Shown here in pieces: positions 22,441 to 64,000 of a stretch of DNA of 64,000 bases (the first letter of the stretch is position 1; each line of letters begins with the position of its first letter). Origin of the DNA: Denitrobaculum tricleocarpae. GTDB taxonomy: Bacteria > Pseudomonadota > Alphaproteobacteria > Kiloniellales > Kiloniellaceae. The stretch spans positions 124,001-188,000 of the forward strand of contig NZ_ML660058.1 of NCBI RefSeq assembly GCF_007004665.1, given 5' to 3'. The translations under genes were made by a program, and so were the position numbers. The notes under the pieces are model-generated. The model saw nothing but the letters and a program-made list of their open reading frames with translations, made no database searches and was not told the origin of the DNA.

Positions 22441-23784
22441 ATGACACAGCAATGGAGCGTCGATGTTCTGACCTGCAGAGGCAGTTCCTATGACACTGGG
22501 CTGCAGGTCGCCGAGGGTTTTCGAAAGACACCCCGCGGGCGCGCTTTCAAGCGTCGCAAGGAACGCTGGCCTTTCGGCTTCAGCCTGAAGAACGCGGAGG
22601 CCGCGCTCAACGCTTACGCGCCCAATATCTGGGAGGAGTTACACGGCCTCGCGGACGGGCTTAAAATCTCTCTGGAACGCGCGGTGGCGGAATTTTCCAA
22701 TGGCCGTTTGCGCTATCCCAAACGCGGCTGTTCCGCGGTGATGACCGGTGGGCTCTACGGACGTAACTACGACTTCAGTCCGAAACGCTACGATCGCCTG
22801 CTGATCGCCGTTCAGCCCGAGGGTGTGAATGCCAACATCGGCTTTTCCGACCGATTCACCGGGCGGGACGACGGTATGAACGAGCATGGCCTTTGCGTCG
22901 GACTGCACTACGTGAACGAGGCCAATTGGCAGCCCGGGCTGGTCAGTATTCTGATCGTGCGGATTCTGCTGGATCAATGCGCAACCACGGCGGAAGCGGT
23001 GGATCTGGCCAAACGCCTGCCGCACGGTCTCGGCTTCAACTACTCGATCACCGATGCGCAAGGCAAGGCGGCCGTGGTCGAAGCCTCGCCTGCCGGGATC
23101 GCCGTGCGCGAGGGCAGGGAGCTTGCCTGCACAAATCACTACCAGTCCCCGGAACTGCAAAGCCAAAACCGTCGCAACGCCAGTTCCTGCCGGCGGCTCC
23201 CGACTTTGGAGATCTGGTCGCGTGATCGAACCACGGCGGCGGACCTATTCCTTCGGCTCAATGCTTCTCGCTCGACCGTTTTCGCCCATGGCTATACGCG
23301 TGGCGGCGGTACGCTGCACAGCCTCGTCTGTGATGCCGCTCAACGGAAAATGCTGGTCGGTGTGGGCGGCGACGCCACCCCGGTGGAGCTCGATATCGGT
23401 GCCTGGGCGGCAGGCAGCAATCTTGCGGTCACGCAACTGACAGGACAACTGGGCGGCAGGCTCAAACCCTCTGACCCAAACCGACGCGCCCGCGAGAAGG
23501 CGAAAGGGGAAAGCGGCGGTTCCGATATGAACTTCATCGACGCCGATCTCAGCGGCGCCGCCTTCAGGGACGTCTCGTTGAAAGATGCGGTCTTTGAGAA
23601 TGCGAACATGGCCGGCGCAAAATTTGCTGACATCAACCTGGCCGGCGCACGCTTTGACAACATCAGTCTTGCCGATGTCGAGATTACTCGGAACTGCAAC
23701 TTCAAGGGCATGACCATCGCCGGGGTCAGCGTCGAGGATTTATTCAGAGCCTACAACGCACAAGGGCCAAAAAGAGAAGTATGA
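22441..23784 (+). CDS. C45-type autoproteolytic acyltransferase/hydrolase fused to pentapeptide repeats
   Basis: A 447-residue fusion. Residues ~1-330 match the acyl-CoA:6-aminopenicillanate acyltransferase-like (C45, Ntn hydrolase) family. The catalytic residue is C97 in YPKRGCSAVMTGG, preceded by the helical precursor part AFKRRKERWPFGFS, with GRNYDF and GMNEHGLCVGLHYVNE typical of the fold. These enzymes self-cleave before the Cys to expose an N-terminal nucleophile and act on amide bonds. Residues ~365-425 are pentapeptide repeats (DLSGAAFRDVSLKDAVFENA). The ATG at 22441 replaces a far-upstream frame. It overlaps the next gene by ATGA. Confidence 0.82.
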   Translation: MTQQWSVDVLTCRGSSYDTGLQVAEGFRKTPRGRAFKRRKERWPFGFSLKNAEAALNAYAPNIWEELHGLADGLKISLERAVAEFSNGRLRYPKRGCSAVMTGGLYGRNYDFSPKRYDRLLIAVQPEGVNANIGFSDRFTGRDDGMNEHGLCVGLHYVNEANWQPGLVSILIVRILLDQCATTAEAVDLAKRLPHGLGFNYSITDAQGKAAVVEASPAGIAVREGRELACTNHYQSPELQSQNRRNASSCRRLPTLEIWSRDRTTAADLFLRLNASRSTVFAHGYTRGGGTLHSLVCDAAQRKMLVGVGGDATPVELDIGAWAAGSNLAVTQLTGQLGGRLKPSDPNRRAREKAKGESGGSDMNFIDADLSGAAFRDVSLKDAVFENANMAGAKFADINLAGARFDNISLADVEITRNCNFKGMTIAGVSVEDLFRAYNAQGPKREV

Positions 23785-37388: not shown

Positions 37389-38333
37389 ATGCCAGGGGCA
37401 AGGCAGAGAGAAGAGACGCGAGAAGAGACGCGAGAAGAGGCAGGGCCGGCGACTGGAACCAAAAGGTCTTGGGGGATCAACAACGACACCGCATCCTTGC
37501 GCGATGTCTTGCTGGGCAAGCCGGAGTATTATCGCTGGGTCGAGGCCGGGCCGCTGATCGGCCGGACGCTGGCCAATGCGCACAAGACCGGGGTGAAGTT
37601 CGATCTGCAGACAGCGATGGCGCAGCATGCCGAGATGGTGTCGATCTACGAGGACAACGGCGTCGCCTGCCATTATCTGGAGGCCGACCCGGTTTTGCAC
37701 CGGAACTTCTTCGCCCGCGACTCTTCGGCCATGACGCCCTGGGGCGCCTTGATTTGCCATATGCAGCTCAAAGTGCGGCGCGCGGATTACGTGACGGCGA
37801 TCCGGTTTTATCAGGAGAAGGCTATTCCGATCTGGAACTTCGCGACCGCGGGTCACTTCGAGGGCGGCGATTTCGTCATCCTGGAGCCGGGCCGGGTCCT
37901 GATCGGGTATTGCGGCGAGCGTTCCGAAAAGGAAGGTGCGGAACAGGTCGCCGATTTCGTGCGCGGCGAAGGCTGGGAGGCGGTCACCGCACCGATCAGC
38001 CGTGAGTTCGTTCACATGGATGGATTGGTCGTGCCCCTGGCCGAGAAGCTCTTGGTCGCCTGTGTCGATGCCCTGGAGCCCTGGCTGGTCGCGCAACTGA
38101 AGGAATGGGGTTTCGACTTCGTCGACGTCCCCTATCGGGAGGCCAAAAACCTGGGGGTCAATCTGGTTGCGCTGGGCAACGGCAAGGTACTGTCTATGAA
38201 GGGGGCCAGTGAGTTGAACGAAAAGATGCGTGCGCTCGGCTTCACGGTGTACGACCCGGACATGTCCATGTTCACCCTGGGCGGCGGCGGGGTGCACTGC
38301 CTCTGCCAGGCGCTTTGCCGGGACGCGCTTTAG
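37389..38333 (+). CDS. Amidinotransferase-fold guanidino hydrolase (DDAH/arginine deiminase-like)
   Basis: A 314-residue enzyme of the guanidine-modifying superfamily. Catalytic residues are H156 in GHFEGGDFV and C304 in GGGGVHCLCQ, preceded by the substrate-site block LHRNFFARDSSAMTPWGALI. Members hydrolyse or transfer the amidino group of arginine, dimethylarginine, agmatine or related guanidines; the exact substrate is not readable. The ATG at 37389 has GGGAG six bases upstream, better than 37383 or 37326. The N-terminus carries a tandem RQREETREETREE repeat, odd for the family and encoded by a 12-bp DNA repeat. It is followed by an R2 element. Confidence 0.86.
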   Translation: MPGARQREETREETREEAGPATGTKRSWGINNDTASLRDVLLGKPEYYRWVEAGPLIGRTLANAHKTGVKFDLQTAMAQHAEMVSIYEDNGVACHYLEADPVLHRNFFARDSSAMTPWGALICHMQLKVRRADYVTAIRFYQEKAIPIWNFATAGHFEGGDFVILEPGRVLIGYCGERSEKEGAEQVADFVRGEGWEAVTAPISREFVHMDGLVVPLAEKLLVACVDALEPWLVAQLKEWGFDFVDVPYREAKNLGVNLVALGNGKVLSMKGASELNEKMRALGFTVYDPDMSMFTLGGGGVHCLCQALCRDAL

Positions 38334-50279: not shown

Positions 50280-50302
50280 GGCTTTCAATCCTCTCGCAAT
50301 AA

Positions 50303-50347
50303 ACATACAATCTGTATGTAAATGATAGAAACATACAAGGTGTATGT
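50303..50347. promoter_or_regulatory. Two tandem TetR operators
   Basis: ACATACA-ATC-TGTATGT at 50303-50319 and ACATACA-AGG-TGTATGT at 50331-50347 have identical perfect 7-bp arms with 3-bp centres. Their centres are 28 bp apart. The second abuts the ATG of the TetR gene, so binding would block its start; the first lies 24 bases before the VOC gene. Confidence 0.88.
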
Positions 50348-51016
50348 ATGCAAGAGAATTCCGATAAGAGCCTTGAAAGACCTGCCGCAAAACCCTCGGC
50401 CAAGACTTTGCGGGGACCGACAGGCGGTAACGCACAGCGCAGAAGCAACAAGCAGCGTAGCGAGAGCACGCGCAGCGCTTTGATCTCGGCGGCGCGGCGG
50501 CTTTTTGTGGAAAAGGGCTATGCCGAAACCGGGACGCCCGAGATCGTCGCCGCGGCCCAGGTCACCCGTGGCGCGCTCTATCATCACTTCGCTGACAAAG
50601 CGGATCTTTTCCGGGCGACCCTGCGGGAAGAAGCGCGGGCGGTCGCCGATCACATCGAGCAAGAGACCGAAGAAGCGCGATCCGCGCTCGAGGCTATGAC
50701 ACGCGGGGCCGACTCCTACTTCGCGGCCATGTCGGTGCCGGGGCGGGTGCGGTTGTTGTTGCTCGATGGACCTGCCGTGCTGGGTCATGCGGAGATGGCA
50801 GAGATAGACCAGGAAACCGGCGGTGAAGAACTCCGGCAGGGCCTGGCCTATGCGATGGAGAAGGGCGCGCTCGCCCCGCTGCCCCTCGAGGCCATGACCT
50901 CCATCCTCTCCGCCGCCTTCGACCGGGCCGCGCTGGCGATTGCGCAGGGCGCGCCTGCGGAGGACTATAAAGCCGCGATCCGCCGCATGCTGGAAGGCCT
51001 TCTGAAGAGAGCCTGA
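50348..51016 (+). CDS. TetR/AcrR-family regulator
   Basis: A 222-residue TetR-type regulator. An Arg/Lys-rich ~38-residue tail precedes the HTH at ~40-88 ([20 protein letters not shown], then [20 protein letters not shown]), followed by a TetR_C domain. It starts directly after the second operator, whose arms match the first exactly, so autorepression is likely, together with control of the divergent VOC gene. Confidence 0.9.
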
Positions 51017-53283: not shown

Positions 53284-53865
53284 ATGCCACGAGACTCCAA
53301 GAGCACACGCGACCGGATACTGGATGCTGCAAACCGTCTCTTCTACGCGGAGGGTATCCGCGCGGTCAGTGTGGATGCGATTGCGGAAAAAGCGGGTGTG
53401 ACCAAACGCACGCTCTATTACCATTTCAAGAGCAAGGACGAGTTGATCACCGCCTATCTGGAATCGCGCGACCAGCCCAATCTGAAACTCTTCGCGAAGT
53501 GGTTTGAGGAAGCCGAGGGCGGCCTTGCGGCAAAGATCGAGGCGCTGTTCCGGAATCTGGCCAAGTCGGCCCGCCATCCGAGGTGGAAGGGCTGTGGCTT
53601 TCTGCGCACCGCTGCCGAGCTGGCCAACATGCCGGGGCATCCCGCGGTTCAGGTCGGCGCCGCGCACAAGCACAGGTTCGAGGTCTGGCTGGCTGAGGCG
53701 ATAGCCGCGGAAAGCGCGGACAACGCGGCCCAGCTCGCGCGCCACATTGTTCTGCTCATGGACGGTGCGTTTTCCACCATGCTGATCCATCGGGACCCGG
53801 CCTATGTGGAAGCTGCCGGCGATGCCGCGGCGGCGCTGGTTCGGGCGCAGACGGGGCGGCGCTAG
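53284..53865 (+). CDS. TetR/AcrR-family regulator
   Basis: A 193-residue TetR regulator. The HTH is residues ~8-58 (RDRILDAANRLFYAEGIRAV, then EKAGVTKRTLYYHFKSKDEL), followed by a TetR_C domain with GFLRTAAELANMPGHPAV. The ATG at 53284 is adjacent to its dyad; the open frame to 53170 runs through the operator and is rejected. Its TAG stop lies inside a CTAG that is duplicated just downstream. Confidence 0.9.
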   Translation: MPRDSKSTRDRILDAANRLFYAEGIRAVSVDAIAEKAGVTKRTLYYHFKSKDELITAYLESRDQPNLKLFAKWFEEAEGGLAAKIEALFRNLAKSARHPRWKGCGFLRTAAELANMPGHPAVQVGAAHKHRFEVWLAEAIAAESADNAAQLARHIVLLMDGAFSTMLIHRDPAYVEAAGDAAAALVRAQTGRR

Positions 53866-53883
53866 AGACGGGGCGGCGCTAGA
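53850..53883 (+). repeat. Tandem 17-bp duplication across the TetR stop codon
   Basis: GACGGGGCGGCGCTAGA occurs twice in a row (53850-53866 and 53867-53883). The first contains the TetR TAG stop and the second ends in the CTAG that opens the R2 element. It looks like a small duplication at the element's insertion edge. Confidence 0.8.
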
Positions 53884-53948: not shown

Positions 53949-54027
53949 AGGAATTAAAACGGGTTTTCCGATTTTTTTATGGTCAATCCGGCGCGGCGTG
54001 AGCGCACCGGGTTGCCGGGGCAGGCCG

Positions 54028-54489
54028 TTACCAGGCGAGCGTCTTGATGTTTTGATCGAAGAGCAAACCCTCGACCAACTCCCAGTTGCCCATTTGAACG
54101 CCGTCGATGTAGTCGTCCTTGGTCAGGCCCGCCGCCTGTGAGCAGGTGCCGCACATAATGACCTGTCCGCCGTCCTTCATGAAGGCCGACAGCATGTCTT
54201 GTATCGACTTATTCTGATCCCGCATCAGACCGTGCAGGTGAGAGGGCCGTTTCTTGTCGGCAAGATAGACGGCGCGAACGTTCAGCCAGATTGCCACAGG
54301 CTTGTGGCCGTTCTTCAGGGCCTTCTCATGGGCGAAAAAGATAGCTTTTGCTGCTGACCAGGTGTCGTCGGTAGTGAGGTTGATAAAGAGGCCGGTGGAT
54401 TTGTTTCCGTCGGATGCCGCTGACACCGGAACAGCGAAAAGAGTGAGAAGAGCAAGACCGGCGAAAAAGACTGAAATCGTACGCTGCAT
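54028..54489 (-). CDS. Exported DsrE-family protein
   Basis: A 153-residue protein with a signal peptide (ISVFFAGLALLTLFAVPVSA) and a DsrE/DsrF-like fold (KSTGLFINLTTDDTWSAAKA). The conserved site is MCGTCSQAAGLTKDDYIDG, with two cysteines that resemble the sulphur-relay Cys of the family. Relatives handle sulphur or thiol groups, but exported members are less well studied. Mature protein is periplasmic. Confidence 0.82.
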   Translation of the reverse strand: MQRTISVFFAGLALLTLFAVPVSAASDGNKSTGLFINLTTDDTWSAAKAIFFAHEKALKNGHKPVAIWLNVRAVYLADKKRPSHLHGLMRDQNKSIQDMLSAFMKDGGQVIMCGTCSQAAGLTKDDYIDGVQMGNWELVEGLLFDQNIKTLAW

Positions 54490-54648
54490 GGAAAGTTTCC
54501 TGACTGCCGAATGAGGGGTAGTTCAGTGTGATCTCTCCGGGGCTATAGGCATTGATCTCGATCAACCCTTACGCGAGAAAACCGGATCGAGACCGGCGAG
54601 CATCCGGCGTGCCGTGCTGACGAGGCGTATAGGTGTGAGGGCGCCGGT

Positions 54649-55506
54649 TTAAGGCCAGAGCTGCGGAAAGAAATCGCCCGCGATGGCGTCACCGTCGCCG
54701 TAGCCCGCCGCCTCGAACAAGGCGCGTTCTTCCTTGGCCCAGTCGCCGCGGTAGCGGATCTCTCCGTCTTCCGCCGTCATGCGCAGGGTATAACGCTGGA
54801 CCGTCTCGCTGGGCGTTGTGGTGGAGAGGCTGCCGTGCAGGGTGCGCATGTCGAAAAAGATGCAGTCGCCCAACTCCAGATCGAACTGCACCAGGTCATA
54901 TGCGCCGGGGTCGCCCTCGATATCCGGCGGCAGGTCATAGCGCACGCCCCTCACGGTCTGGGCTGCGTCACCCGTCTGATGTCCGTCGTCGAAGCGCACC
55001 CGCAGGAAGTGTTTGCCCCAGAGATGGGAGCCCCGCACGAAGGAGATACCGTTCTCCTTGGAGACCGGTTCCAGGGGTAGCCAGAGCACGCACATGGAAC
55101 CGGCAAAATCGAAGTAAGAGATGTCGTGGTGAAAGGGCGGGCGTGAGCTGCTGCCGGCCTCGCGCAGGAACCAGTTGTCCATCACCAGATTGATCCGTTT
55201 CGCACCCAACAGCTGCGCGGCGATCGCAGCACAGGGCGAGCTGCGGACGAAGTCCTCGAAGGCCGGAACATGGGACCAGCACCAGAAGTCTTCCCAATAA
55301 GCGGGTGCGTCCGGTTCCTTGCAGTGGTTGGTCAGATTGGGGCTCGGTTGCTCCAGGTCGGCCTTGATCCCGGAGCGCAGACCTTCAATCCACTCCGGCG
55401 CAAAGACCTTGCGCAACGCAACCACGCCGTCGCTCCGGAAGCCGGCAATGGCCTCAGGACTTATCTCCACCGATACGTCGCGCGCCGCTCTATTCAATAT
55501 TGTCAT
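54649..55506 (-). CDS. Phytanoyl-CoA dioxygenase (PhyH) family protein
   Basis: A 285-residue Fe(II)/2-oxoglutarate oxygenase of the PhyH family. The facial triad appears as FHHDISYFDF (HxD) and the distal His in FFDMRTLHGSLSTTT, with Arg in QRYTLRMTAED. The ATG at 55506 is chosen; an upstream ATG adds 17 residues. Substrate unknown; such enzymes hydroxylate lipids, quaternary ammonium or secondary metabolites. It is downstream of the DoxX-like gene on the same strand (70 bp), possibly one operon. Confidence 0.87.
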   Translation of the reverse strand: MTILNRAARDVSVEISPEAIAGFRSDGVVALRKVFAPEWIEGLRSGIKADLEQPSPNLTNHCKEPDAPAYWEDFWCWSHVPAFEDFVRSSPCAAIAAQLLGAKRINLVMDNWFLREAGSSSRPPFHHDISYFDFAGSMCVLWLPLEPVSKENGISFVRGSHLWGKHFLRVRFDDGHQTGDAAQTVRGVRYDLPPDIEGDPGAYDLVQFDLELGDCIFFDMRTLHGSLSTTTPSETVQRYTLRMTAEDGEIRYRGDWAKEERALFEAAGYGDGDAIAGDFFPQLWP

Positions 55507-55576
55507 GACCCTGCTCCTGCTGCACAGCGACATTGAAGTCACGGAGGGCAGGGCCATGTCAATCCGTCATGAAGGG

Positions 55577-56005
55577 TCAGCGTTTGAGGACCAGCTTCGT
55601 GTCCTGCTCGCGCAACAGGAAAAGAACCAGACACGCCGCCAGAACCGGCACGGACGCAAAGAAGAGCTGATTGCTGCCGCCGCCGTAGGGGTCGAGGATC
55701 TGCGGCAGAGATACAACGACCGTGATGGCGTTCATCAGCAGCATCAGGCCGTAGGTGATCGTCCGGTAGAGGCCGAGCGCGAAGGCGAGAATCAGGGCCG
55801 TCTGCACCGCGCCGATGGCCAGGATCGTCGTGACGCCAAAGGAGGCTCCGTAGAAGTGCTGGAAGAGGCCGATAAAGTCCTCCGGCATGATGAGTTTGTC
55901 GATGGACCAGACCAGCATGAAGATCGCGATGCTCCATCTCAGAATGGGCAGAACGGCGGCGGGGCTTGCCGTGGGCGTCAGGAACTTGGGCATCGGTTTG
56001 AGCAC
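55577..56005 (-). CDS. DoxX-like small membrane protein
   Basis: A 142-residue protein with four hydrophobic helices (PILRWSIAIFMLVWSIDKLI, ITYGLMLLMNAITVVVSLPQ). The pattern with an N-terminal helix and WSIDKL resembles DoxX/DoxD-like proteins, which accompany redox or quinone-linked functions. It lies downstream of the Rrf2 gene and upstream of the PhyH gene on the same strand. A gap of 178 bp separates it from Rrf2, so it may have its own promoter. Confidence 0.75.
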   Translation of the reverse strand: MLKPMPKFLTPTASPAAVLPILRWSIAIFMLVWSIDKLIMPEDFIGLFQHFYGASFGVTTILAIGAVQTALILAFALGLYRTITYGLMLLMNAITVVVSLPQILDPYGGGSNQLFFASVPVLAACLVLFLLREQDTKLVLKR

Positions 56006-56183
56006 TCCGTTTTCTACAGCATTTCATTGTGTTAGGAGGCTTTGGCGGGCCCCAACGACGTGCATATGGGCCGGGAGTTCTCGGGAAAAAGGACCCCCTC
56101 GCGGGAATGTGATCTGTGAGGACCGCGGGAAGCGGCCGGGACAACATCGCCGGAAAAGCCCCCACGAGCGCCGGATCCGACTC

Positions 56184-56630
56184 TCAGCTCTCGAGTTCGG
56201 GTTGCCGCAAGAGCTTGGCAATGCCGCGCTTGTTGGCGGTGGCGTCGGCGAGACTGTAGCGGTCGAGCGTCTCGAAGAAGGCACGATGAGCGTCGTTTAA
56301 GACGGCGATCAGGCCGCAGGCGCTCTCTATGGCGCAGCTTCCATCTCTACCGCGCATGCACTCAACCAGTCCGGTGCCGCGCTCGGCCCGCCGGACCACC
56401 TCGCCGATTTTGATTTTCTCCGGTGCAATAGCCAGCCGCAGGCCGCCGCCTTTGCCGCGCGTGGCGGTCGCATAACCCTCGTTGACAAGCCACTTGCAGA
56501 CCTTGGCAACGTGATGAACCGAGATGCCATAGCTCTCGGCGATCTCCCTCGAACTGACCTGTCTGCCGTCGCTCACGGCAAGGTAGATCAAGGCCCGGAG
56601 AGAGTAGTCAGTGAAAGCCGTAAGTTGCAT
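56184..56630 (-). CDS. Rrf2-family regulator (NsrR-like)
   Basis: A 148-residue Rrf2-family winged-helix regulator. HTH region: TDYSLRALIYLAVSDGRQVS and YGISVHHVAKVCKWLVNEGY. Three cysteines in CMRGRDGSCAIESACGL match the cluster ligands of NsrR-type sensors, which lose their cluster with nitric oxide. A palindrome, ATGAATTCAT, lies directly upstream of the start and may be its own site. Regulation of the DoxX/PhyH genes is plausible but not shown. Confidence 0.86.
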   Translation of the reverse strand: MQLTAFTDYSLRALIYLAVSDGRQVSSREIAESYGISVHHVAKVCKWLVNEGYATATRGKGGGLRLAIAPEKIKIGEVVRRAERGTGLVECMRGRDGSCAIESACGLIAVLNDAHRAFFETLDRYSLADATANKRGIAKLLRQPELES

Positions 56631-56631
56631 T

Positions 56632-56641
56632 ATGAATTCAT
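56632..56641. promoter_or_regulatory. Palindrome abutting the Rrf2 start
   Basis: ATGAATTCAT is a perfect 10-bp palindrome just upstream of the Rrf2-family gene, flanked by TT and GA. Rrf2 proteins often bind dyads at their own promoters. It is too short for a firm call. Confidence 0.35.
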
Positions 56642-56829
56642 GACAGATTGCAGCTTGCAGATCAATTTGAGTTGTAAAACCCGGAATTCGATACGCAACT
56701 GAAAGGCGTGAACTGGCTTCTTTCGGACCTCATAATCACGCACCGTCTGGCGCCCCGGCGCCCTCGCTGCTACTTCAATGGTGCCTTATCCAGCCGCCAA
56801 ATCCACATCGACCTTACGAGGAGAAGATT

Positions 56830-57585
56830 ATGTCACAAGCCCGGAAAGCCCTCGATTTCGCCAAGCTGCACGTCCCCGGACAGCCGCTCGTGCTTTACAA
56901 TATCTGGGATGCAGGCGGCGCCAAGGTGATGGCCAAGGCGGGAGCCAAAGCGGTCGCGACCGGAAGCTGGTCGGTCGCGGCGGCGCAGGGCTATCCCGAT
57001 GGAGAGAAGATCCCAATGGCGTTCCTGCTGCAGATCGCCGGACGTATCGCCGAAACCGTCGAGCTGCCGCTGACCGTCGACTTCGAAGGCTGCTACGCCG
57101 AGGCGCCGGATGAGGTTGCCGCCAACGTCACCCGCGTGATCGAGGCCGGCGCGATCGGGATCAATTTCGAGGACCAGATTGTCGGCGGCGAAGGGCTGCA
57201 TTCCATCGACGCTCAGTCCGCCAGGATCGCTGCAGCGCGCCAAGCCGCCGAAGCCACCGGCGTACCGCTTTTCATCAATGCCCGTACGGACCTTTTCCTG
57301 AAGGAGAAGGACGCCGGCAAACACGAGAGCCTCGTGGCCGAGGCGACAGCGCGCGCGGCAGCCTATGCCGAAGCGGGCGCGAGCGGCTTTTTTGTTCCCG
57401 GTCTGACCGATCCGGCGCTGATCCGCAGTGTCTGCGAAGCGGTTTCCCTGCCGGTCAACTGCATGATGAAGGAGGGCGCCCCCTCAAGCGACGAGATGGC
57501 GGCGCTCGGTGTGGCGCGTATCAGCCACGGTCCGGGTCCTTACTTCACCGCCATGGCCGACCTCGCAAAACGCGCGCAGGTTTGA
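56830..57585 (+). CDS. Isocitrate lyase/PEP mutase-family enzyme
   Basis: A 251-residue member of the isocitrate lyase/phosphoenolpyruvate mutase family. The metal-site motif VDFEGCYAEAP takes the place of the usual VDGDTG-like motif, and NFEDQIVGGEGLHS, INARTDLFL and MMKEGAPSSDEMAALG are typical of the family. The enzyme forms or breaks a C-C or C-P bond beside a carboxylate (for example 2-methylisocitrate or oxaloacetate). AGGAGAAG precedes the ATG. The gene stands alone on the strand. Confidence 0.88.
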   Translation: MSQARKALDFAKLHVPGQPLVLYNIWDAGGAKVMAKAGAKAVATGSWSVAAAQGYPDGEKIPMAFLLQIAGRIAETVELPLTVDFEGCYAEAPDEVAANVTRVIEAGAIGINFEDQIVGGEGLHSIDAQSARIAAARQAAEATGVPLFINARTDLFLKEKDAGKHESLVAEATARAAAYAEAGASGFFVPGLTDPALIRSVCEAVSLPVNCMMKEGAPSSDEMAALGVARISHGPGPYFTAMADLAKRAQV

Positions 57586-57595
57586 TCGTTTTTCT

Positions 57596-57617
57596 GCGTT
57601 ATTATGTGATATTACGC
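57596..57617. promoter_or_regulatory. Possible Mo-responsive (ModE-type) dyad upstream of modA-like gene
   Basis: Arms GCGTTAT at 57596-57602 and ATTACGC at 57611-57617 match in six of seven pairs around the 8-base centre TATGTGAT. The position (92 bases before the modA-like start) and the CGTTAT core resemble Mo-boxes bound by ModE-type regulators in alphaproteobacteria. The match is partial. Confidence 0.45.
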
Positions 57618-57647
57618 AAAATCTGTTGTTTTTCCCGAATATCTTTG

Positions 57648-57683
57648 GGAGTCTCACAGGAGAGAGATCTCCAATGAGACTCC
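57648..57683 (+). ncRNA. GAGA-capped leader hairpin before modA-like gene
   Basis: GGAGTCTCA (57648-57656) and TGAGACTCC (57675-57683) form a 9-bp stem. Inside, past an internal loop CA/AA, GGAGA and TCTCC make 5 bp around a GAGA tetraloop. It lies 25 bases before the ATG and ends just before the GGGGAGAG ribosome site. Such a stable leader could act in regulation or mRNA stability; nothing identifies a known riboswitch. Confidence 0.6.
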
Positions 57684-57708
57684 GGAAAATCAATATGGGG
57701 AGAGCAGA

Positions 57709-58524
57709 ATGCGTGGCCTCGGAAAGAGGATGTTTCTTGCTGCGGTCATGGGACTGGCGGCCATGAACCCGGCGGGCGCTACAGAACTGAAACTCATTGC
57801 CGCGGGCAGCTTGAAAGCCGCCCTCGGCGAAGTCGCCCGGGCTTACGAGGCGGAGAGTGGGACAAGGGTCGAGACGACCTTCGGCCCCTCCGGCCTGATG
57901 CGTGAAAAGATCGAGGCGAGCGGCGGATATCACGTCTTCGCGTCGGCCAATATGAAGCATCCGGCCAAGCTGTTCGAGGCGGGTAAATCCGGCACGGTGA
58001 AGCTCTTTGCCCGCAATAAACTCTGCGCCCTGGCGCAGCCCGGGTTGAAGCTCGAGAGCGACCATCTGCTCGATACCATGCTCAGCACGGAGATCAAGCT
58101 CGGGACCTCGACACCCAAGGCGGATCCCTCTGGCGATTATGCTTTCGAGCTGTTCGACAAAGCCGAGAGTCTGCGGCCCGGCGCGGCGGAGAAACTCAAG
58201 GCGAAATCCCTTCAACTGACCGGTGGCAAGACCACGGCCAGAGCACCGGAGGGCCGCAATCAATACGCCTGGGTGATGGAACGCAAGCAGGCGGACATTT
58301 TCCTGACTTACTGCACCAACGCGGTCCTGGCGCAGCGTGAACTCGAAAGACTGCAGATCGTCACGCTGCCTGGCGCCCTTTCGGTCGGCGCGGATTATGG
58401 CCTGACCGTTATCTCGGGTGCGCCGGAGGGCGCTGCGTCGCTCGCGGATTTTATTCTCTCCGCGGTTGGACAGAAGATCCTGGACGGGTATGGTTTTGAA
58501 ACGGTCCGGCCCGGGTCGGACTAG
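57709..58524 (+). CDS. ModA-like molybdate/tungstate-type substrate-binding protein
   Basis: A 271-residue periplasmic binding protein of the ModA fold. Signal region MFLAAVMGLAAMNPAGATEL. The mature N-terminus LKLIAAGSLKAALGEVARAY and TTFGPSGLMREKIEA are hallmark blocks, and LFARNKLCALAQPG follows. A typical mod operon would have ModB and ModC next; here a Fec-type ABC operon follows instead. GGGGAGAG lies nine bases before ATG. Its TAG stop lies in the CTAG that opens an R1 element. Confidence 0.85.
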   Translation: MRGLGKRMFLAAVMGLAAMNPAGATELKLIAAGSLKAALGEVARAYEAESGTRVETTFGPSGLMREKIEASGGYHVFASANMKHPAKLFEAGKSGTVKLFARNKLCALAQPGLKLESDHLLDTMLSTEIKLGTSTPKADPSGDYAFELFDKAESLRPGAAEKLKAKSLQLTGGKTTARAPEGRNQYAWVMERKQADIFLTYCTNAVLAQRELERLQIVTLPGALSVGADYGLTVISGAPEGAASLADFILSAVGQKILDGYGFETVRPGSD

Positions 58525-58650
58525 TGTGATGTTTCTGAAGTTCGTCGCATAGTATGCGACGAATTTTAGAGACTGAATCACACTAGATCCAATGAGGTAG
58601 TATCCCGAATCTGAAATTCAATGACGTGAATTTCAGATTCGGGATACTAG
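58521..58650 (+). repeat. CTAG-bounded double-hairpin element R1, copy C
   Basis: A 130-bp element with CTAG at both ends. Module 1 has perfect 10-bp arms CTAGTGTGAT/ATCACACTAG and inner CGTCGCATA/TATGCGACG. Module 2 has a perfect stem of more than 20 bp (TAGTATCCCGAATCTG start) around ATGACG. It supplies the TAG stop of the modA-like gene. It lies in the gap before the Fec-type binding-protein gene. Confidence 0.92.
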
Positions 58651-58691
58651 GAGTTCCCAACCTGAGTTTCGAAAAGCTACGGAGACGCTTT

Positions 58692-59732
58692 GTGTTAGCC
58701 CGGATCGCCGCCCTGATTGTCATGACCCTGATGCTCGCGCCGGCGGCTTCCGCCCGCACGGTCACGGACTCTGCGGGACGTCAGGTCGAGGTGCCGGATA
58801 ACATCAGCCGGGTCTATGCGGCGGGCCCGCCGGCCTCCATTTTGCTGTACATCGTTGCGCCCGACAAATTGACCGGCTGGCCGAGGGCGCCGCGCGATTA
58901 TGAGCGCCCTTACATCGCCGAAGCCTATCGCGACCTGCCTGAAACCGGACGCCTGACCGGCCGGGGCAATACCGCGAACCTGGAACGCCTGCTGGCGGCG
59001 AAGCCGGACCTGATCGTGGATTTCGGCTCGATCAAGGACACCTATGTTTCGCTGGCGAACGACATTCAGGCCCAGACCGGTATTCCCTACATCCTGATCG
59101 ACGGCCGCTTTGAGAATACCCCGGCTGCGCTGCGGCTGCTTGCCGAGGTCCTGGGCGTCGAGGCGCGTGGCGAAGAGCTGGCGGGATATGTGGAAGCGCT
59201 GTTCGAAGAGATCGAAAGCGGACTGGCGGCGGTTCCGCAAGACGCACGCCCGCGCAGCTATCTGGCGCGCGGTCCGGCGGGCCTGGAGACCGGCTTGAAG
59301 GGATCGATCAACACGGAAATCATCGAGCGCGCCGGTGGGGTTAATGTCGCTGATCCGGGCGACGCCTCGATCCGGCGCGGGATCGTGAATGCCTCGATCG
59401 AGCAGATTATCGCCGCGAACCCGGACAGCATCATCACCTGGGACCGGCGCTTCTACGATGCTGTCTGGCAGGACCCGTTCTGGTCTGGTATCGACGCCGT
59501 AAAACGTAAACGGGTTTATCTCAGTCCCACAGCGCCCTTCGGCTGGGTCGACCGGCCGCCTTCGGTCAACCGGATCATCGGCCTGCGCTGGCTCTCGGGT
59601 CTCTTCTTTCCCGAGCGCTTTCAGTTCGACCTCAGGGCCGAAACCCGCCGCTTCTATGAGCTCTTCTACCACGTCGACTTGAGCGATGAGGATCTGGAGC
59701 GGCTGATCGAGTGGTCTCAGGGCCGACCGTGA
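58692..59732 (+). CDS. Fec-type ABC substrate-binding protein (MolA-like candidate)
   Basis: A 346-residue periplasmic binding protein of the FepB/BtuF class. The start is GTG 58692 with GGAGA six bases upstream, outside the R1 element. Signal LARIAALIVMTLMLAPAASA, then RTVTDSAGRQVEVPDNISRV and AAKPDLIVDFGSIK. A C-terminal APFGWVDRPPSVNRIIGLRW block recalls the group that includes the H. influenzae molybdate/tungstate protein MolA, and a ModA-like gene lies just upstream. It overlaps the permease by GTGA. Confidence 0.88.
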   Translation: MLARIAALIVMTLMLAPAASARTVTDSAGRQVEVPDNISRVYAAGPPASILLYIVAPDKLTGWPRAPRDYERPYIAEAYRDLPETGRLTGRGNTANLERLLAAKPDLIVDFGSIKDTYVSLANDIQAQTGIPYILIDGRFENTPAALRLLAEVLGVEARGEELAGYVEALFEEIESGLAAVPQDARPRSYLARGPAGLETGLKGSINTEIIERAGGVNVADPGDASIRRGIVNASIEQIIAANPDSIITWDRRFYDAVWQDPFWSGIDAVKRKRVYLSPTAPFGWVDRPPSVNRIIGLRWLSGLFFPERFQFDLRAETRRFYELFYHVDLSDEDLERLIEWSQGRP

Positions 59733-60748
59733 CGGGCCGTCTCGCCTTTCAGCTCTGGCTGCTCGCCGCGGCGGTGCTGGCGCTTGCCGTTGCCGCCGTG
59801 ATGACCGGTCCCTATCAGGCCTCTTTGGGCGATCTTCTGCAGGCCGTCGCCCGTTATGTTGGCCTGCAGAGCGCCGCCGAGGGCGGTCCGGGGACCATCG
59901 ATACGATCCTCTTCGGGGTCAGGATTCCCCGGGTGGCCGCCGCCTTGCTGACCGGGGCCGCCCTGGCGGGGGCCGGCGCCGTGTACCAGGGGCTGTTCCG
60001 GAACCCCCTGGTCTCGCCGGATATCCTGGGCGTGTCCGCCGGCGCGGGGCTGGGCGCGGCCTTCGGTATCTTTTTCTCGCTGCCGGTCTTCGCGATCCAG
60101 GGGCTCGCTTTCGTTGCCGGACTGGGGACCGTCGGCCTGGTCTATCTGGTCGCGACCATGGTGCGCAGCTACGAGCCGACCCTGGTTCTGGTGCTGTCGG
60201 GCGTCGTCATGGGCGCGCTGGCCGGAGCCTGTCTCTCGCTGTTGAAGATCCTGGCCGATCCCTACGATCAACTCCCGGCGATCACCTTCTGGCTGCTCGG
60301 CAGCCTGGCCGCGATCCGCCCGCAGGATGTCTGGGGCAGCCTGCCCGCCGTGCTCATCGGACTGCTGCCGATCCTGCTGTTGCGCTGGCGCATGAATGTC
60401 ATGTCCCTGGGCGATGAAGAGGCTTCGGCGCTCGGCATCAATCCGCGTAGGCTGCGGCTGATCCTGGTGATGGCTGCGACCCTCATGACCGCCGCCGTGG
60501 TCTCCATCGCGGGCGTGGTCGGATGGGTCGGTCTGGTGATCCCGCATATTGCGCGGCTTTTGGTCGGTCCGGATTTTACCCGTCTCTTGCCCACCGCGAT
60601 GCTGATCGGCGCGGGCTACATGCTTCTGATCGATATGATCGCCCGCAACCTGACCACGACCGAGACCCCGCTCGGGGTGCTGACCGCCTTTATCGGCGCG
60701 CCGGTCTTCATCTGGCTGCTGGCGTCGGGACGCCGGGGTTGGTCATGA
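59729..60748 (+). CDS. Fec-type ABC transporter permease
   Basis: A 339-residue FecCD/BtuC-family permease with about ten helices. Blocks are VRIPRVAAALLTGAALAGAG, YQGLFRNPLVSPDILGVSAG, DEEASALGINPRRLRL (coupling region) and VSIAGVVGWVGLVIPHIARL. The start is a GTG at 59729 overlapping the binding-protein stop. It ends GRRGWS-stop, and the same GGWS-stop recurs in three downstream micro-ORFs that link it to the ATPase. Confidence 0.93.
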   Translation: MTGRLAFQLWLLAAAVLALAVAAVMTGPYQASLGDLLQAVARYVGLQSAAEGGPGTIDTILFGVRIPRVAAALLTGAALAGAGAVYQGLFRNPLVSPDILGVSAGAGLGAAFGIFFSLPVFAIQGLAFVAGLGTVGLVYLVATMVRSYEPTLVLVLSGVVMGALAGACLSLLKILADPYDQLPAITFWLLGSLAAIRPQDVWGSLPAVLIGLLPILLLRWRMNVMSLGDEEASALGINPRRLRLILVMAATLMTAAVVSIAGVVGWVGLVIPHIARLLVGPDFTRLLPTAMLIGAGYMLLIDMIARNLTTTETPLGVLTAFIGAPVFIWLLASGRRGWS

Positions 60749-60829
60749 GAACAGGCGGTTGGTCATGAGGACGGGCGGCTGGTCATGAATAAGGCGCGAG
60801 TGGTCATCAGAACGGGAGGCTGGTCATGA
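60741..60829 (+). repeat. Tandem ~20-bp repeats encoding coupled micro-ORFs
   Basis: Four units of 20-21 bp, each starting GGTCATGA or a variant (60741, 60761, 60781, 60802), separate permease stop and ATPase start. They encode MRTGGWS (60745-60768), MRTGGWS (60765-60788) and MNKARVVIRTGGWS (60785-60829). Each ATG overlaps the preceding stop in ATGA, and the last stop overlaps the ATPase ATG at 60826. The permease also ends GWS. The final unit carries GGGAGG, a good ribosome site for the ATPase. Confidence 0.85.
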
Positions 60830-61590
60830 AGCTCGACGTCTCCGATCTTGCCTTCGGTTATCCGGGCTTTCCGGTCGGTCAGGATGTCTCGCTCCATCTG
60901 GAGGCGGGGGAGGTGCTTTGCCTGCTCGGGCCGAACGGTTGCGGTAAGACCACCCTCTTTAAAACGGTGATGGGCCTGCTGCCGCCGCGCGGCGGCCGGA
61001 TCGCGATCGGCGGCCGCGCCATGGAAAGCCTTGCCCGTCCCGAGCTCGCCCGCCTGATGGCCTATGTGCCCCAGGCCCATGCGCCGGTCTTTCCCTACAG
61101 CGTCCACGACATGGTTCTCATGGGACGCACCGCGCACCGGGGCCTCTTCGCCGCGCCCTCCAAAGGGGATCACGAAGCCGCGCTGGCGGCGCTGGAACAG
61201 CTCGAGATCGCCGATCTGGCAACGCGGGATTACACCCGGCTTTCCGGCGGGCAGCGGCAACTGGTTCTGATCGCCCGTGCCCTGGCTCAGGAATCGCCCT
61301 TCATCCTGCTGGACGAGCCGACGGCGAGCCTGGACTTCGGCAATCAGTTGATGGTGCTGGAGCAGGTGCGCCGTCTGGCGGCGGACGGCAAGGGGATCGT
61401 CATGTCGACCCATGACCCCGATCACGCCTTTGCCTGCGGCACGCGCGCGCTGGCCATGAAGGACGGCCGGACGCTCGCGAACGGCCCGGTTGCCGAAACC
61501 CTGACGGGAGAGGTGCTCAGCAGCCTCTATGACGTTCCGGTCGAGATCCTTCTTGCCGGCGAACGGCGCATCTGCCTCCCGGCGATTTGA
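60826..61590 (+). CDS. Fec-type ABC transporter ATP-binding protein
   Basis: A 254-residue ABC ATPase partnering the 59729 permease. Walker A GPNGCGKTT, signature LSGGQRQLV, Walker B FILLDEPTASLDFGN and H-loop MSTHDPDHAFA are all intact. Its ATG overlaps the stop of the last micro-ORF (ATGA), and GGGAGG lies seven bases upstream. With 58692 and 59729 it forms a full importer; ligand could be molybdate/tungstate by context, or an iron chelate or corrinoid. Confidence 0.93.
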   Translation: MKLDVSDLAFGYPGFPVGQDVSLHLEAGEVLCLLGPNGCGKTTLFKTVMGLLPPRGGRIAIGGRAMESLARPELARLMAYVPQAHAPVFPYSVHDMVLMGRTAHRGLFAAPSKGDHEAALAALEQLEIADLATRDYTRLSGGQRQLVLIARALAQESPFILLDEPTASLDFGNQLMVLEQVRRLAADGKGIVMSTHDPDHAFACGTRALAMKDGRTLANGPVAETLTGEVLSSLYDVPVEILLAGERRICLPAI

Positions 61591-61699
61591 GCGACATCAA
61601 GGACTTGCTGCCAGCTCTGTGATCCTTTGAACTTCACCGCCGCCCGATGGGCGCAGGTCTTCATCGGGTGGCTCGTCCGATCCTTCGAGGGAGTTCGCC

Positions 61700-61828
61700 A
61701 TGACTATTTCGCCGATGCTCTTCATCTGTCTTTTCTTCGCCAGCCTGGGACACTTCTTCATCGGCGCCGCCGCGATCTGGTGGGTCTCTCTCCAGGCCGC
61801 GGGGCGGAAACGCAAGAATGGTAGTTGA
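61700..61828 (+). CDS. 42-residue membrane protein
   Basis: A short gene not easily seen among longer frames. It begins MTISPMLFICLFFASLGHFF, continues IGAAAIWWVSLQ and ends AAGRKRKNGS. GAGGGAG lies six bases before the ATG. The single helix of about 25 residues and a positive C-terminal tail point to an inner-membrane protein with its C-terminus in the cytoplasm. No family is recognised. It starts 109 bp after the ABC ATPase and may be transcribed with it. Confidence 0.62.
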   Translation: MTISPMLFICLFFASLGHFFIGAAAIWWVSLQAAGRKRKNGS

Positions 61829-62025
61829 CGGGCGTCCCAATGGCTCATCACGCTTGGTCTCCAGTTGGGCAGTAGGTTCGCTTCAGTTGGCGCCTCAGCT
61901 ATTGACCGGCTGAGCACTGAATTTCCCCATCTTCAGAGAGCTTTAAGCTCTTTCGTTGTTCTGTTGGCCGCTGCTCCTGCAGTTTCAAATGAGCTTCTCG
62001 GAGAAGATTATAGGGCACTTCAGAT

Positions 62026-62478
62026 ATGATTTTAGGCAGGTTGCGAGACCTATTTCTATTTGGCAGTTGTTTACTGGTCGTCGTGTTTGGTGCCAGCACG
62101 GCTGAAGCTCTGAGCTGCCGTAAGCCTGGTGTACAAGAACACATTCGCAATTCGGACTTGGTGTTCTATGGCTCGCTGCAAGGACGCCCGCGCGTTGATC
62201 GGGATAAACGGGAATGGATGGGCAAGTTCAAAGTGCTCTGGGCCTATAAAGGCGTAGAGGACAAGTCTGTCATTGTAACGCTCACCAATACCCGTATCGG
62301 TGATTTATCTGGACGACGTTTTAGTGGTGGTATGCCGATCTTGGTTTTTGCCGAACGCGAGGGGGTCAACGAGGACGGTCTGGTAATAGCCAGTGTCCAT
62401 TACTGTTCCATGATGGCTTATCACGGTCGGTCTCACCTTCACCCGAAGTACTGGTATCTCTTGAACCAACTGCAGTAG
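62026..62478 (+). CDS. Hypothetical secreted protein (netrin/TIMP-like pattern)
   Basis: A 150-residue protein with signal LFLFGSCLLVVVFGASTAEA. The mature part begins LSCRKPGVQEHIRNSDLVFY and has GKFKVLWAYKGVEDKSVIVT, a pattern (Cys, then D-VFYG-L, then a strand with V-WKG) seen in secreted netrin/TIMP-like OB folds. Cys31 and Cys near SVHYCSMM could form a disulphide. The family is a tentative impression. A terminator follows 150 bp later. Confidence 0.62.
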   Translation: MILGRLRDLFLFGSCLLVVVFGASTAEALSCRKPGVQEHIRNSDLVFYGSLQGRPRVDRDKREWMGKFKVLWAYKGVEDKSVIVTLTNTRIGDLSGRRFSGGMPILVFAEREGVNEDGLVIASVHYCSMMAYHGRSHLHPKYWYLLNQLQ

Positions 62479-62627
62479 CGGCTGCCGCTCATTCCCAACG
62501 GCCTGAGCTTGGTTAAACATGGCTCCTGCCCGAGTTGGTCCATCGCGAGAAGCATTCTCCGCGGCCGAACTCATGAGGCACGGTGGTTGCCATGCTGGAG
62601 AAGTAACCACTATTCGCCCAATGCAAA

Positions 62628-62667
62628 GCACGCACTGACGACGTACCGTCAATGCGCGCTTTTTTAG
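62628..62667 (+). terminator. Rho-independent terminator
   Basis: AAGCACGCACTGACG (62628-62642) and CGTCAATGCGCGCTT (62649-62663) form a 15-bp stem with two mismatches around ACGTAC, followed by TTTTTT to 62667. It ends transcription of the 62026 gene and lies 25 bp from the end of the convergent SDR gene. Confidence 0.85.
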
Positions 62668-62692
62668 TGGTGCAGAGAAGACTTCCTGAGGC

Positions 62693-63442
62693 TTAGGAGA
62701 ACAGCATACCGCCGTTGATGTCGACACAGGCGCCGGTCATGAAGGCGGACTGGTCGGAGGCCAGGAAGACGGCGAGGTTGGCGGTGTCTTCGGAGGTGCC
62801 CTCGCGCTTCACCGGGCTGACGTTGGCCACGTGGGTGCGGACTTCCGGCTTGGTGAAGATGTTGTGGAAGTCGGTGTCGATCATGCCGGGGCAGAGGGCG
62901 TTGACGCGGATGCGCGGGCCGAACTCCTTGGCCAGGCCCCGGGTCATGGTCATGACCGCGCCTTTCGAGGTGGCATAGGCCACGGCCCCCGGCCCGCCGC
63001 CGTCACGGCCCGCCTGGGATGCCATGGGGACGATCGCACTGCCTTCCGGCATATAGGGTTCGACCGCCTTGACGATCAGGAAGAGGGAGGTGGTGTTCAG
63101 GTCCATGACCCGCTGGTAATGCTCCAGGTCCATTTCCTCGATGCGCTTGCGGGCGATCAGACCGCCGGTGACATGCATCAGGACGTGGATCTCCTCGCCG
63201 AACTTGGCGCGGGTAACGCTCACGAGCTTTTCGACATCGGCCGGGTTCGTCATGTCGCCCTGCAGGGCGAAGGCTTCGCCGCCGGCAGCTTCGATTTCCT
63301 TCACCGCCGAGGCCGCGCCTTCGCTGCTGGAGTGGTAGTTGATGGCGACCTTCACGCCTTCTTCCGCCAGGCGCATCACGCAGGCGCGGCCGATGTCACG
63401 GCCACCGCCGGTCACGATCGCTACTTTTCCCTTCAGGTTCAT
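62693..63442 (-). CDS. SDR-family oxidoreductase (FabG-like)
   Basis: A 249-residue classical short-chain dehydrogenase/reductase. The NAD(P) motif is [11 protein letters not shown]. The catalytic triad motif is [20 protein letters not shown], where Y and K are active, with Ser in [12 protein letters not shown] conserved PG motif is in [12 protein letters not shown]. It is cytoplasmic. The ligand is unclear; 3-oxoacyl or sugar/sterol alcohol substrates are possible. GGAGGAA lies before ATG. Confidence 0.92.
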
Positions 63443-63862
63443 CGAGACTTCCTCCCACTGTCGCCCAAGTCAATTTGGACAGAGTTACTGTTACAGGTGT
63501 TGCTGTTTGCCAAGAGATGCAATTCAGGTCCAACTGGTATGGTAGTGCCCCAGACCTGTCAAGTTATTCGAGAGCCTGACCTGATCCGCACAGCCTCGAT
63601 GACCCGCAGCGTCGCGAGATTTTCCGGAGTCGGGTTGACCGCTTGCCGGCGATTTTAAGATGCAGCCTTTTCAGAGTCGTTTTGAGGTTTTCTCACTGCC
63701 GCGTTTCAGGGGTGCTCACTATCCGAAGGACGTCACCCTCAACAAAGCCCCGGCTCAAACCAACCAGGAGATTTACGGCACAGACAGGTTGACGAAAGTC
63801 AAGGACTTGCACTGATAAAGCGGCCCATATGCCACCCACCCAATGAGCAAATGGAGGGAACC
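63443..63862. other. Gene-free region before the last gene
   Basis: A 420-bp stretch between divergent genes. It holds the SDR ribosome site, an AT-richer section at 63470-63545 and a GGAGGG ribosome site at its end (63853-63858). No ORF, operator or hairpin was supported. CTTGC/GCAAG-type short repeats seemed random. Confidence 0.45.
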
Positions 63863-64000
63863 GTGTTACCTGGAACCGCATTCGGTAAATCAAATCGCGC
63901 AATGGGAGTCGGCTTGACCATGCTGATGAGCAGCGTAGCCGCCCCAGCCCTCGCAGAAGGGCCCACGCTATCCGAGGAGGCCTTTGAGAGCTCGAAGCAG
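63863..64000 (+). CDS. Exported protein, 3' truncated by window end
   Basis: The first 46 codons of an exported protein. The start is a GTG at 63863 with GGAGGG about five bases upstream, reading MLPGTAFGKSNRAMGVGLTM then LMSSVAAPALAEG. That is a signal peptide with an AxA-like site (ALA), and the mature part starts EGPTLSEEAFESSKQ. No family can be given from so little. An ABC binding protein or periplasmic enzyme would fit. Confidence 0.6.
   Translation, partial: MLPGTAFGKSNRAMGVGLTMLMSSVAAPALAEGPTLSEEAFESSKQ

Follow-up and report, generated by a model that had tools for sequence, protein, structure and literature searches.

The transporter operon and its permease/ATPase junction

The window, i.e. 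the whole stretch of 64,000 nucleotides that was analysed, carries on its forward strand an ABC transporter operon in which the gene of a substrate-binding protein is followed by those of a FecCD-type permease and of an ABC ATPase (Table 1). The best solved relative of the permease by sequence is 2nq2 (HI1471; E 3.3e-63), MolB of a molybdate/tungstate importer. The operon is adjoined upstream by a gene coding for a ModA-like molybdate binding protein (57709-58524; NF002917, above cut-off). This gene, together with a FecCD importer whose nearest solved permease by sequence is HI1471, makes a molybdate or tungstate locus possible. Between the ModA-like and the binding-protein genes, at 58596-58651, sub-threshold matches to several unrelated hairpin RNA families were observed on both strands, and these suggest an inverted repeat, perhaps a terminator.

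The permease stop (TGA at 60746-60748) and the ATPase start are separated by 77 bases. The frame of the ATPase is shut upstream by a TAA at 60790-60792, and from there to 60826 ATG, GTG and TTG are all absent. Direct reading of the sequence confirmed the chain described in the initial annotation: ATGA overlaps at 60745, 60765, 60785 and 60826 link the permease to MRTGGWS, to a second MRTGGWS, to MNKARVVIRTGGWS and to the ATPase. As it had also stated, the peptides end in TGGWS and the permease in GWS.

Table 1. Features of the operon and of its repeat array (positions in the window), and repeats of the same kind at other loci of the genome (contig and position).
Feature	Location	Strand	Description	Basis
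Substrate-binding protein (Peripla_BP_2), operon gene 1	58626..59732	+		Pfam PF01497, E 1.2e-18
GTGA overlap	59729..59732	+	binding-protein stop / permease start	read from sequence
FecCD-type ABC permease	59729..60748	+	C-terminus ...RRGWS*	Pfam PF01032, E 3.6e-85
Micro-ORF 1	60745..60768	+	MRTGGWS*, ATGA overlap at both ends	sequence, chain check
Micro-ORF 2	60765..60788	+	MRTGGWS*	sequence, chain check
Micro-ORF 3	60785..60829	+	MNKARVVIRTGGWS*, spans one decayed unit	sequence, chain check
Repeat unit 1	60749..60768	+	20 nt, SD-like GGCGG + TGGTCATGA	
Repeat unit 2	60769..60788	+	20 nt	
Repeat unit 3	60789..60809	+	21 nt, decayed, ATC for ATG, SD -3.7 kcal/mol	
Repeat unit 4	60810..60829	+	20 nt, GGGAGG SD -10.3 kcal/mol + ATPase start	
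ABC transporter ATPase	60826..61590	+		Pfam PF00005, E 5.8e-31
DppB/DppC-like permease pair relay	C1:415991 (415986-416027)		TGATG, 17 nt x2, MEEMG, MGEVD	
AzlC/AzlD-like relay	C2:738413-738457	minus	14 nt x2, VSAKA, MSAEA	
Glycosyltransferase pair relay	C4:349056 (349044-349093)		TGATG, 17 nt x2, MLGQN, MLGPT	
Single 14 nt duplication	C1:106888 (106875)		MSKTP, downstream start uncertain	

The units that follow the permease stop, including the ATGA of the ATPase, are 20, 20, 21 and 20 nt long. In the third, one extra base restores the frame and micro-ORF 3 ends on the ATPase start (41 = 21 + 20 = 3x13+2, again of the form 3k+2), as had been noticed when one unit was described as varying with its frame still giving ATGA. 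Tandem Repeats Finder reported a single array at 60740-60829 (period 20, 4.4 copies, score 92). Unit identity was scored on 20-mers ending just before each start, the decayed unit 3 being left out. Unit 1 was identical to the permease tail at 12/20 positions (shuffle p 0.002), unit 2 to unit 1 at 17/20 and the last unit to unit 2 at 17/20 (0 of 20000 shuffles each). The array score and the 17/20 identities bear out the proposed 20-bp stop/start unit duplicated in tandem, and there is good support for an array built by tandem copying of a unit that includes the stop/start junction. Between units 1, 2 and 4 there are five differences, each at a third codon position; four of the changes are silent, and the fifth is the lost ATG preceding unit 4. 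The SD pairing energies along the array were -6.2, -7.0, -8.2, -3.7 (decayed unit) and, at the ATPase, -10.3 kcal/mol, with a median of -7.2 kcal/mol over 87 direct permease/ATPase junctions. Further Tandem Repeats Finder arrays are present in the window at 23605-23665, 37408-37439, 50301-50358 and 53849-53883, with periods of 30, 12, 28 and 17, respectively.

Junctions in relatives and at other loci of the genome

The permease/ATPase junction was compared with those of related loci. The genome collection supplied 80 of these (the best 80 of 194), and the others were obtained from searches of the order, of the class and of a Rhizobium-centred genus and family, the latter two drawn around the genome of locus L055. 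The 125 loci gave 107 distinct junctions, window included, after 17 duplicates and one locus without ATPase had been dropped. In 87/107 sampled junctions there was a direct overlap, the permease stop carrying an ATG or GTG that is in frame with the ATPase, and in 4/107 an in-frame extended ATPase start at the permease stop. These 91 junctions indicate that coupling is the rule of the family. A micro-ORF relay was found in 9/107, namely in the window, in four Rhizobium loci (L092, L093, L094 and L037), in L124, L053 and L054, which are near-copies of each other, and in L128. The other 7/107 were without overlap, extension or relay (six with no start at the stop, and one with a start at the stop and the relay absent), and in L052, L126 and L081 the ATPase start is displaced and no relay is present.

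On the permease tree of the 107 junctions the relay label requires 5 changes, at least 4 of which are imposed by branches with good support; the branch of L128 is long. The sister of the window, L088 (permease identity 83-84%), is joined by a simple GTGA overlap and has 0 units, and for this reason the relay of the window was most simply gained. The searches gave no relative of the window junction closer than L088. Two 14 nt units (MRDKS + MRVRP) are present in Rhizobium L055/L092, while loci with permeases 98% identical to that of L055 contain one unit each, MRDKS in L041/L093 and MRVRP in L071/L094. This 2, 1, 1 pattern looks as if one 14 nt unit had been gained or lost. The relays of L037, L124, L053, L054 and L128 gave no duplication signal in an equal-period comparison; inspection by eye alone shows the permease tail of L128 to be repeated over 14 nt.

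Relays were also searched for in a genome sample of 2.464 Mb (the window plus 120 stretches of 20 kb; full genome 6.44 Mb), in which genes were called by our own codon-usage caller, not taken from the annotation, and 1122 co-directional pairs were classed. Seven multi-step relays were found and, besides the window, three of them are plain tandem duplications (Table 1). Their genes were named from reading the protein sequences and are presumably DppB/DppC-like, AzlC/AzlD-like and glycosyltransferase pairs. The tail of the upstream gene resembles a further copy in the AzlC/AzlD-like relay, and the peptides of all three lack unit-to-unit conservation of the kind seen in the window. The multi-step chains at C1:388071, C4:271123 and C4:71605 have GTG starts and no evident repeat, and are possibly due to chance. 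At C1:106888 the downstream ORF continues upstream of the assumed start, and the repeat classifier placed this duplication inside a gene. Single relays also occur in the sample at gaps of 4-10 nt, where they may be either selected or fortuitous.

The transporter of the window is patchy in its distribution: at E <= 1e-80 it is absent from the remaining three genomes of the genus in the collection (G001, G002 and G003, one genome per species) and from 22/23 genomes of the family, the exception being that of the window (G000). Since the sister species lack it, the comparison of unit numbers called for in the initial annotation was made within the genus at the other junctions. The DppB/DppC-like junction has 2 units in the genome of the window, 1 in G003 (MGEVV) and 0 in both G002 and G001, which show a direct TGATG; the start of the downstream protein, MLGSEKRDAL, is identical in all four genomes (N-termini read from DNA). 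In 20 further DppB/DppC-like loci of the family, the stop is part of TGATG or TAATG in 16 and of TAGTG in 2, while 2 have neither. At the AzlC/AzlD-like junction, 2 units in the own genome correspond to 0 units and direct overlaps in G003 and G002, and 5/5 more distant loci are likewise direct; no match to this pair was found in G001. The glycosyltransferase junction has 2 units in the own genome, 1 in G003 (MLGQS) and 0 in G001, with a direct TAATG, while in G002 the pair is uncoupled, with TAG followed by a 15 nt gap; more distant glycosyltransferase loci, as listed, are mostly spaced.

In the genus, own genome included, the stop/start chain is intact in 10/11 genome-junction cases. Unit number therefore varies between relatives with coupling mostly kept, although this holds for junctions other than that of the window and one pair, the glycosyltransferases of G002, is uncoupled. 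The initial annotation had suggested selection for re-initiation. The variation of unit number with coupling kept, in Rhizobium and at three genus junctions, is in favour of it, but L052, L126, L081 and the G002 glycosyltransferase pair speak against an absolute requirement.

Period and frame of stop-spanning repeats

Consider a segment containing ATGA that is duplicated in tandem at period p. By simple arithmetic, an ORF opened by the first ATG closes on the TGA of the second copy only where p = 3k+2, and a micro-ORF then bridges the two copies exactly. At p = 3k this ATG shares the frame of the downstream gene and merely lengthens its product, and at p = 3k+1 it takes ribosomes out of frame beyond the true start. 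TGATG overlaps obey the 3k+2 rule too. A count by hand gave five relays with a downstream start (window, C1:415991, C2:738413, C4:349056 and C1:106888), all of the 3k+2 type, an outcome with a chance probability of 0.004 at one third and of 0.03 at one half; the set is small and partly ascertained, all five having been first noticed as relays by the earlier reader or by the chain search. A frame-blind search for tandem repeats across upstream stops, with a cut above the shuffled maximum of 10, recovered all five and returned 18 stop-spanning repeats, with periods distributed as 4, 3 and 11 for 0, 1 and 2 mod 3. The 3k+2 class comprised 5/5 relays as compared to 8/16 other stop-spanning repeats (Fisher p 0.063).

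In the same 2.464 Mb, 261 tandem repeats (period 7-45) were classed by their place. Those inside genes are 0 mod 3 in 137/152 cases, while the 74 wholly intergenic ones are divided into 27, 29 and 18 for 0, 1 and 2 mod 3 (chi-square p 0.25). All four repeats carrying both a stop and the downstream start are 2 mod 3, and one of them, C1:439670 (period 29), is without relay. The 17 repeats that extend across a stop only, with a co-directional neighbour, gave 5, 3 and 9; this class contains the window, whose indel split the array, and its figures reveal an excess of 2 mod 3 also where coupling is not at stake. Stops with an opposite-strand neighbour gave 4, 3 and 2, and other partly genic repeats 2, 2 and 1.

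Frames counted alone were unconvincing (51 relay-capable vs. 40 not, with the window falling in another class). An unplanned and small test looked at the base after the downstream start, where an A allows a relay to form. It took gene pairs whose upstream stop carries an ATG or GTG and whose second gene begins 4-100 nt away. The start was followed by A in 15/23 pairs in the relay-capable frame vs. 5/18 in the other (one-sided Fisher p 0.019; 0.032 for gaps up to 60 nt and 0.067 up to 30 nt). In pairs without a start on the upstream stop, the start was followed by A in 40/100 and 66/143. Judged from these counts, selection on the relay frame is likely. As a separate observation, 17 short tandem repeats of the genome sample span stops though the next gene starts further on, so that slippage may occur readily at the 3' ends of genes here.

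A possible ribosome relay and its alternatives

We consider it probable that slippage duplicates the junction and that the lengths that keep coupling, i.e. 3k+2, survive as a ribosome relay. Replication slippage would copy in tandem the last codons of the permease, the SD-like G-run and the ATGA overlap, and every 3k+2 duplication would add one tiny ORF, opening at the stop before it and closing at the start after it. Having completed the permease, ribosomes would then re-initiate at the overlapping ATG, read 7 codons, terminate at the next ATGA and repeat the process, the last re-initiation being on the ATPase start. Duplications of the 3k+1 type would be removed by selection and those of the 3k type would only lengthen the downstream protein, leaving the frame-keeping relays. 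The structure of the junction, its duplication, the occurrence of similar cases at other loci and the changes in copy number with coupling mostly kept are observations; the slippage, the passage of ribosomes along the relay and the selection on coupling are inferred. The relay would require ribosomes to translate a 7-codon ORF and to re-initiate after it three times running, and the micro-peptides themselves are probably waste.

Distances known from reporters bear on this reading. In published work (PMC10666635), re-initiation needs no more of the upstream gene than its last ~15 nt; it was almost abolished at about 20 nt and, in E. coli reporters, was down by 80-100% at 38 nt. Given these limits, coupling of the ATPase should be lost across a gap of 77 nt, except if ribosomes translate the micro-ORFs or the last SD suffices by itself. 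With an SD stronger than any other in the array, the ATPase could be started de novo.

In biotechnology, the use of a short ORF that delivers ribosomes is called bicistronic design. Termination-reinitiation at ATGA or TGATG overlaps is a known form of gene coupling (PMC6728339; PMC10666635). There, as at the window junction with its four ATGA overlaps, stop and start share bases and upstream translation is expected to feed the downstream gene. With respect to plain coupling of this type, the window chains three micro-ORFs, probably non-coding in purpose, by duplication of the overlap. A review (PMC12548453) deals with short ORFs that deliver a ribosome, in which, as in the window, a tiny ORF brings the terminating ribosome to the next start; the relay of the window differs in being natural, with several ORFs in series, and in lying within an operon and not at its 5' end. 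In the open-access literature, mostly in the form of listings and abstract openings, no description of tandem-duplicated stop/start junctions was met. The principle appears to be the known one (ATGA coupling; MIRU-like), the units having apparently been made by local duplication. More tentatively, and with considerable doubt, junction duplication could be a general and recurring bacterial route to micro-ORF chains, which, since 3k+2 is the only length class to bridge exactly, could act as in-frame, copy-variable translational relays able to set the ratio of neighbouring products.

Sister species with 0, 1 and 2 units between the same genes, and the window with its three micro-ORFs, represent a natural series in which one can ask whether ribosomes re-initiate several times in a row. 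On the fate of the post-termination ribosome two models compete (PMC10666635). The series also illustrates a way in which micro-ORFs that encode nothing useful can appear and persist, and this bears on the reading of small-ORF catalogues from ribosome profiling.

The array might instead be neutral debris of slippage, with the ATPase starting de novo from the GGGAGG of the last unit and the micro-ORFs being incidental. The many short repeats of the sample, with mixed periods in the 74 intergenic ones, and the 17 that cross a stop but end short of the next start, 9 being 2 mod 3, are consistent with such an origin, as are a 3k+2 period expected one time in three, a best SD located in the last unit and the decay of one unit. 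On the other hand, relays recur at several coupled junctions, copy number shifts in sister species with coupling kept in 10/11 cases, the decayed unit is offset by one extra base, and units 1, 2 and 4 vary only at silent third positions, the lost ATG aside; we thus regard debris as an unlikely explanation, though one to be taken seriously. Rather less probable, in our opinion, is that each micro-ORF lowers or raises the number of ribosomes reaching the ATPase and that unit number is a selected, evolvable control of the subunit ratio, much as the initial annotation had tentatively proposed for ATPase output. Differences in unit number among close relatives at four junctions (one in Rhizobium, three in the genus) would fit this idea, and so would the SD strengthening along the working units, from -6.2 to -7.0 and -8.2, and then to -10.3 kcal/mol at the ATPase; the relatives compared, however, are one genome per species only.

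A leader peptide or attenuator sensing the translation of MRTGGWS appears very unlikely. RTGGWS is indeed kept across three units with silent changes only, but MRTGGWS contains no run of one amino acid, the junction RNA shows no structure beyond that of shuffled sequences (z -0.58) and the micro-peptides of other relays are different (MEEMG, MGEVD, MLGQN, VSAKA and MRDKS). A riboswitch, an attenuator and a hairpin found no support either in this fold score or in the search for RNA families, none of which reached its cut-off at 54000-64000 of the window.

Least probable is the insertion at the junction of a dispersed mobile repeat of the type of the mycobacterial interspersed repetitive units (MIRUs), reportedly the subject of Supply et al. 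in 1997. MIRUs are 77-101 bp long and their tandem copies vary between strains. Their resemblance to the window lies in a short repeat holding a small ORF that is coupled at -4 nt to the flanking gene, as the review mentioned above reports (PMC12548453); the ATGA overlaps of the window have the same spacing. MIRUs are, however, dispersed, apparently mobile and much longer, whereas the unit of the window is 20 nt long and seems to be a self-duplicated junction, unit 1 resembling the tail of the permease itself. A dispersed or mobile element was rejected by a pattern search of the whole genome (6.44 Mb, <=2 mismatches), in which the unit was present three times, all at the window junction and at no other locus.
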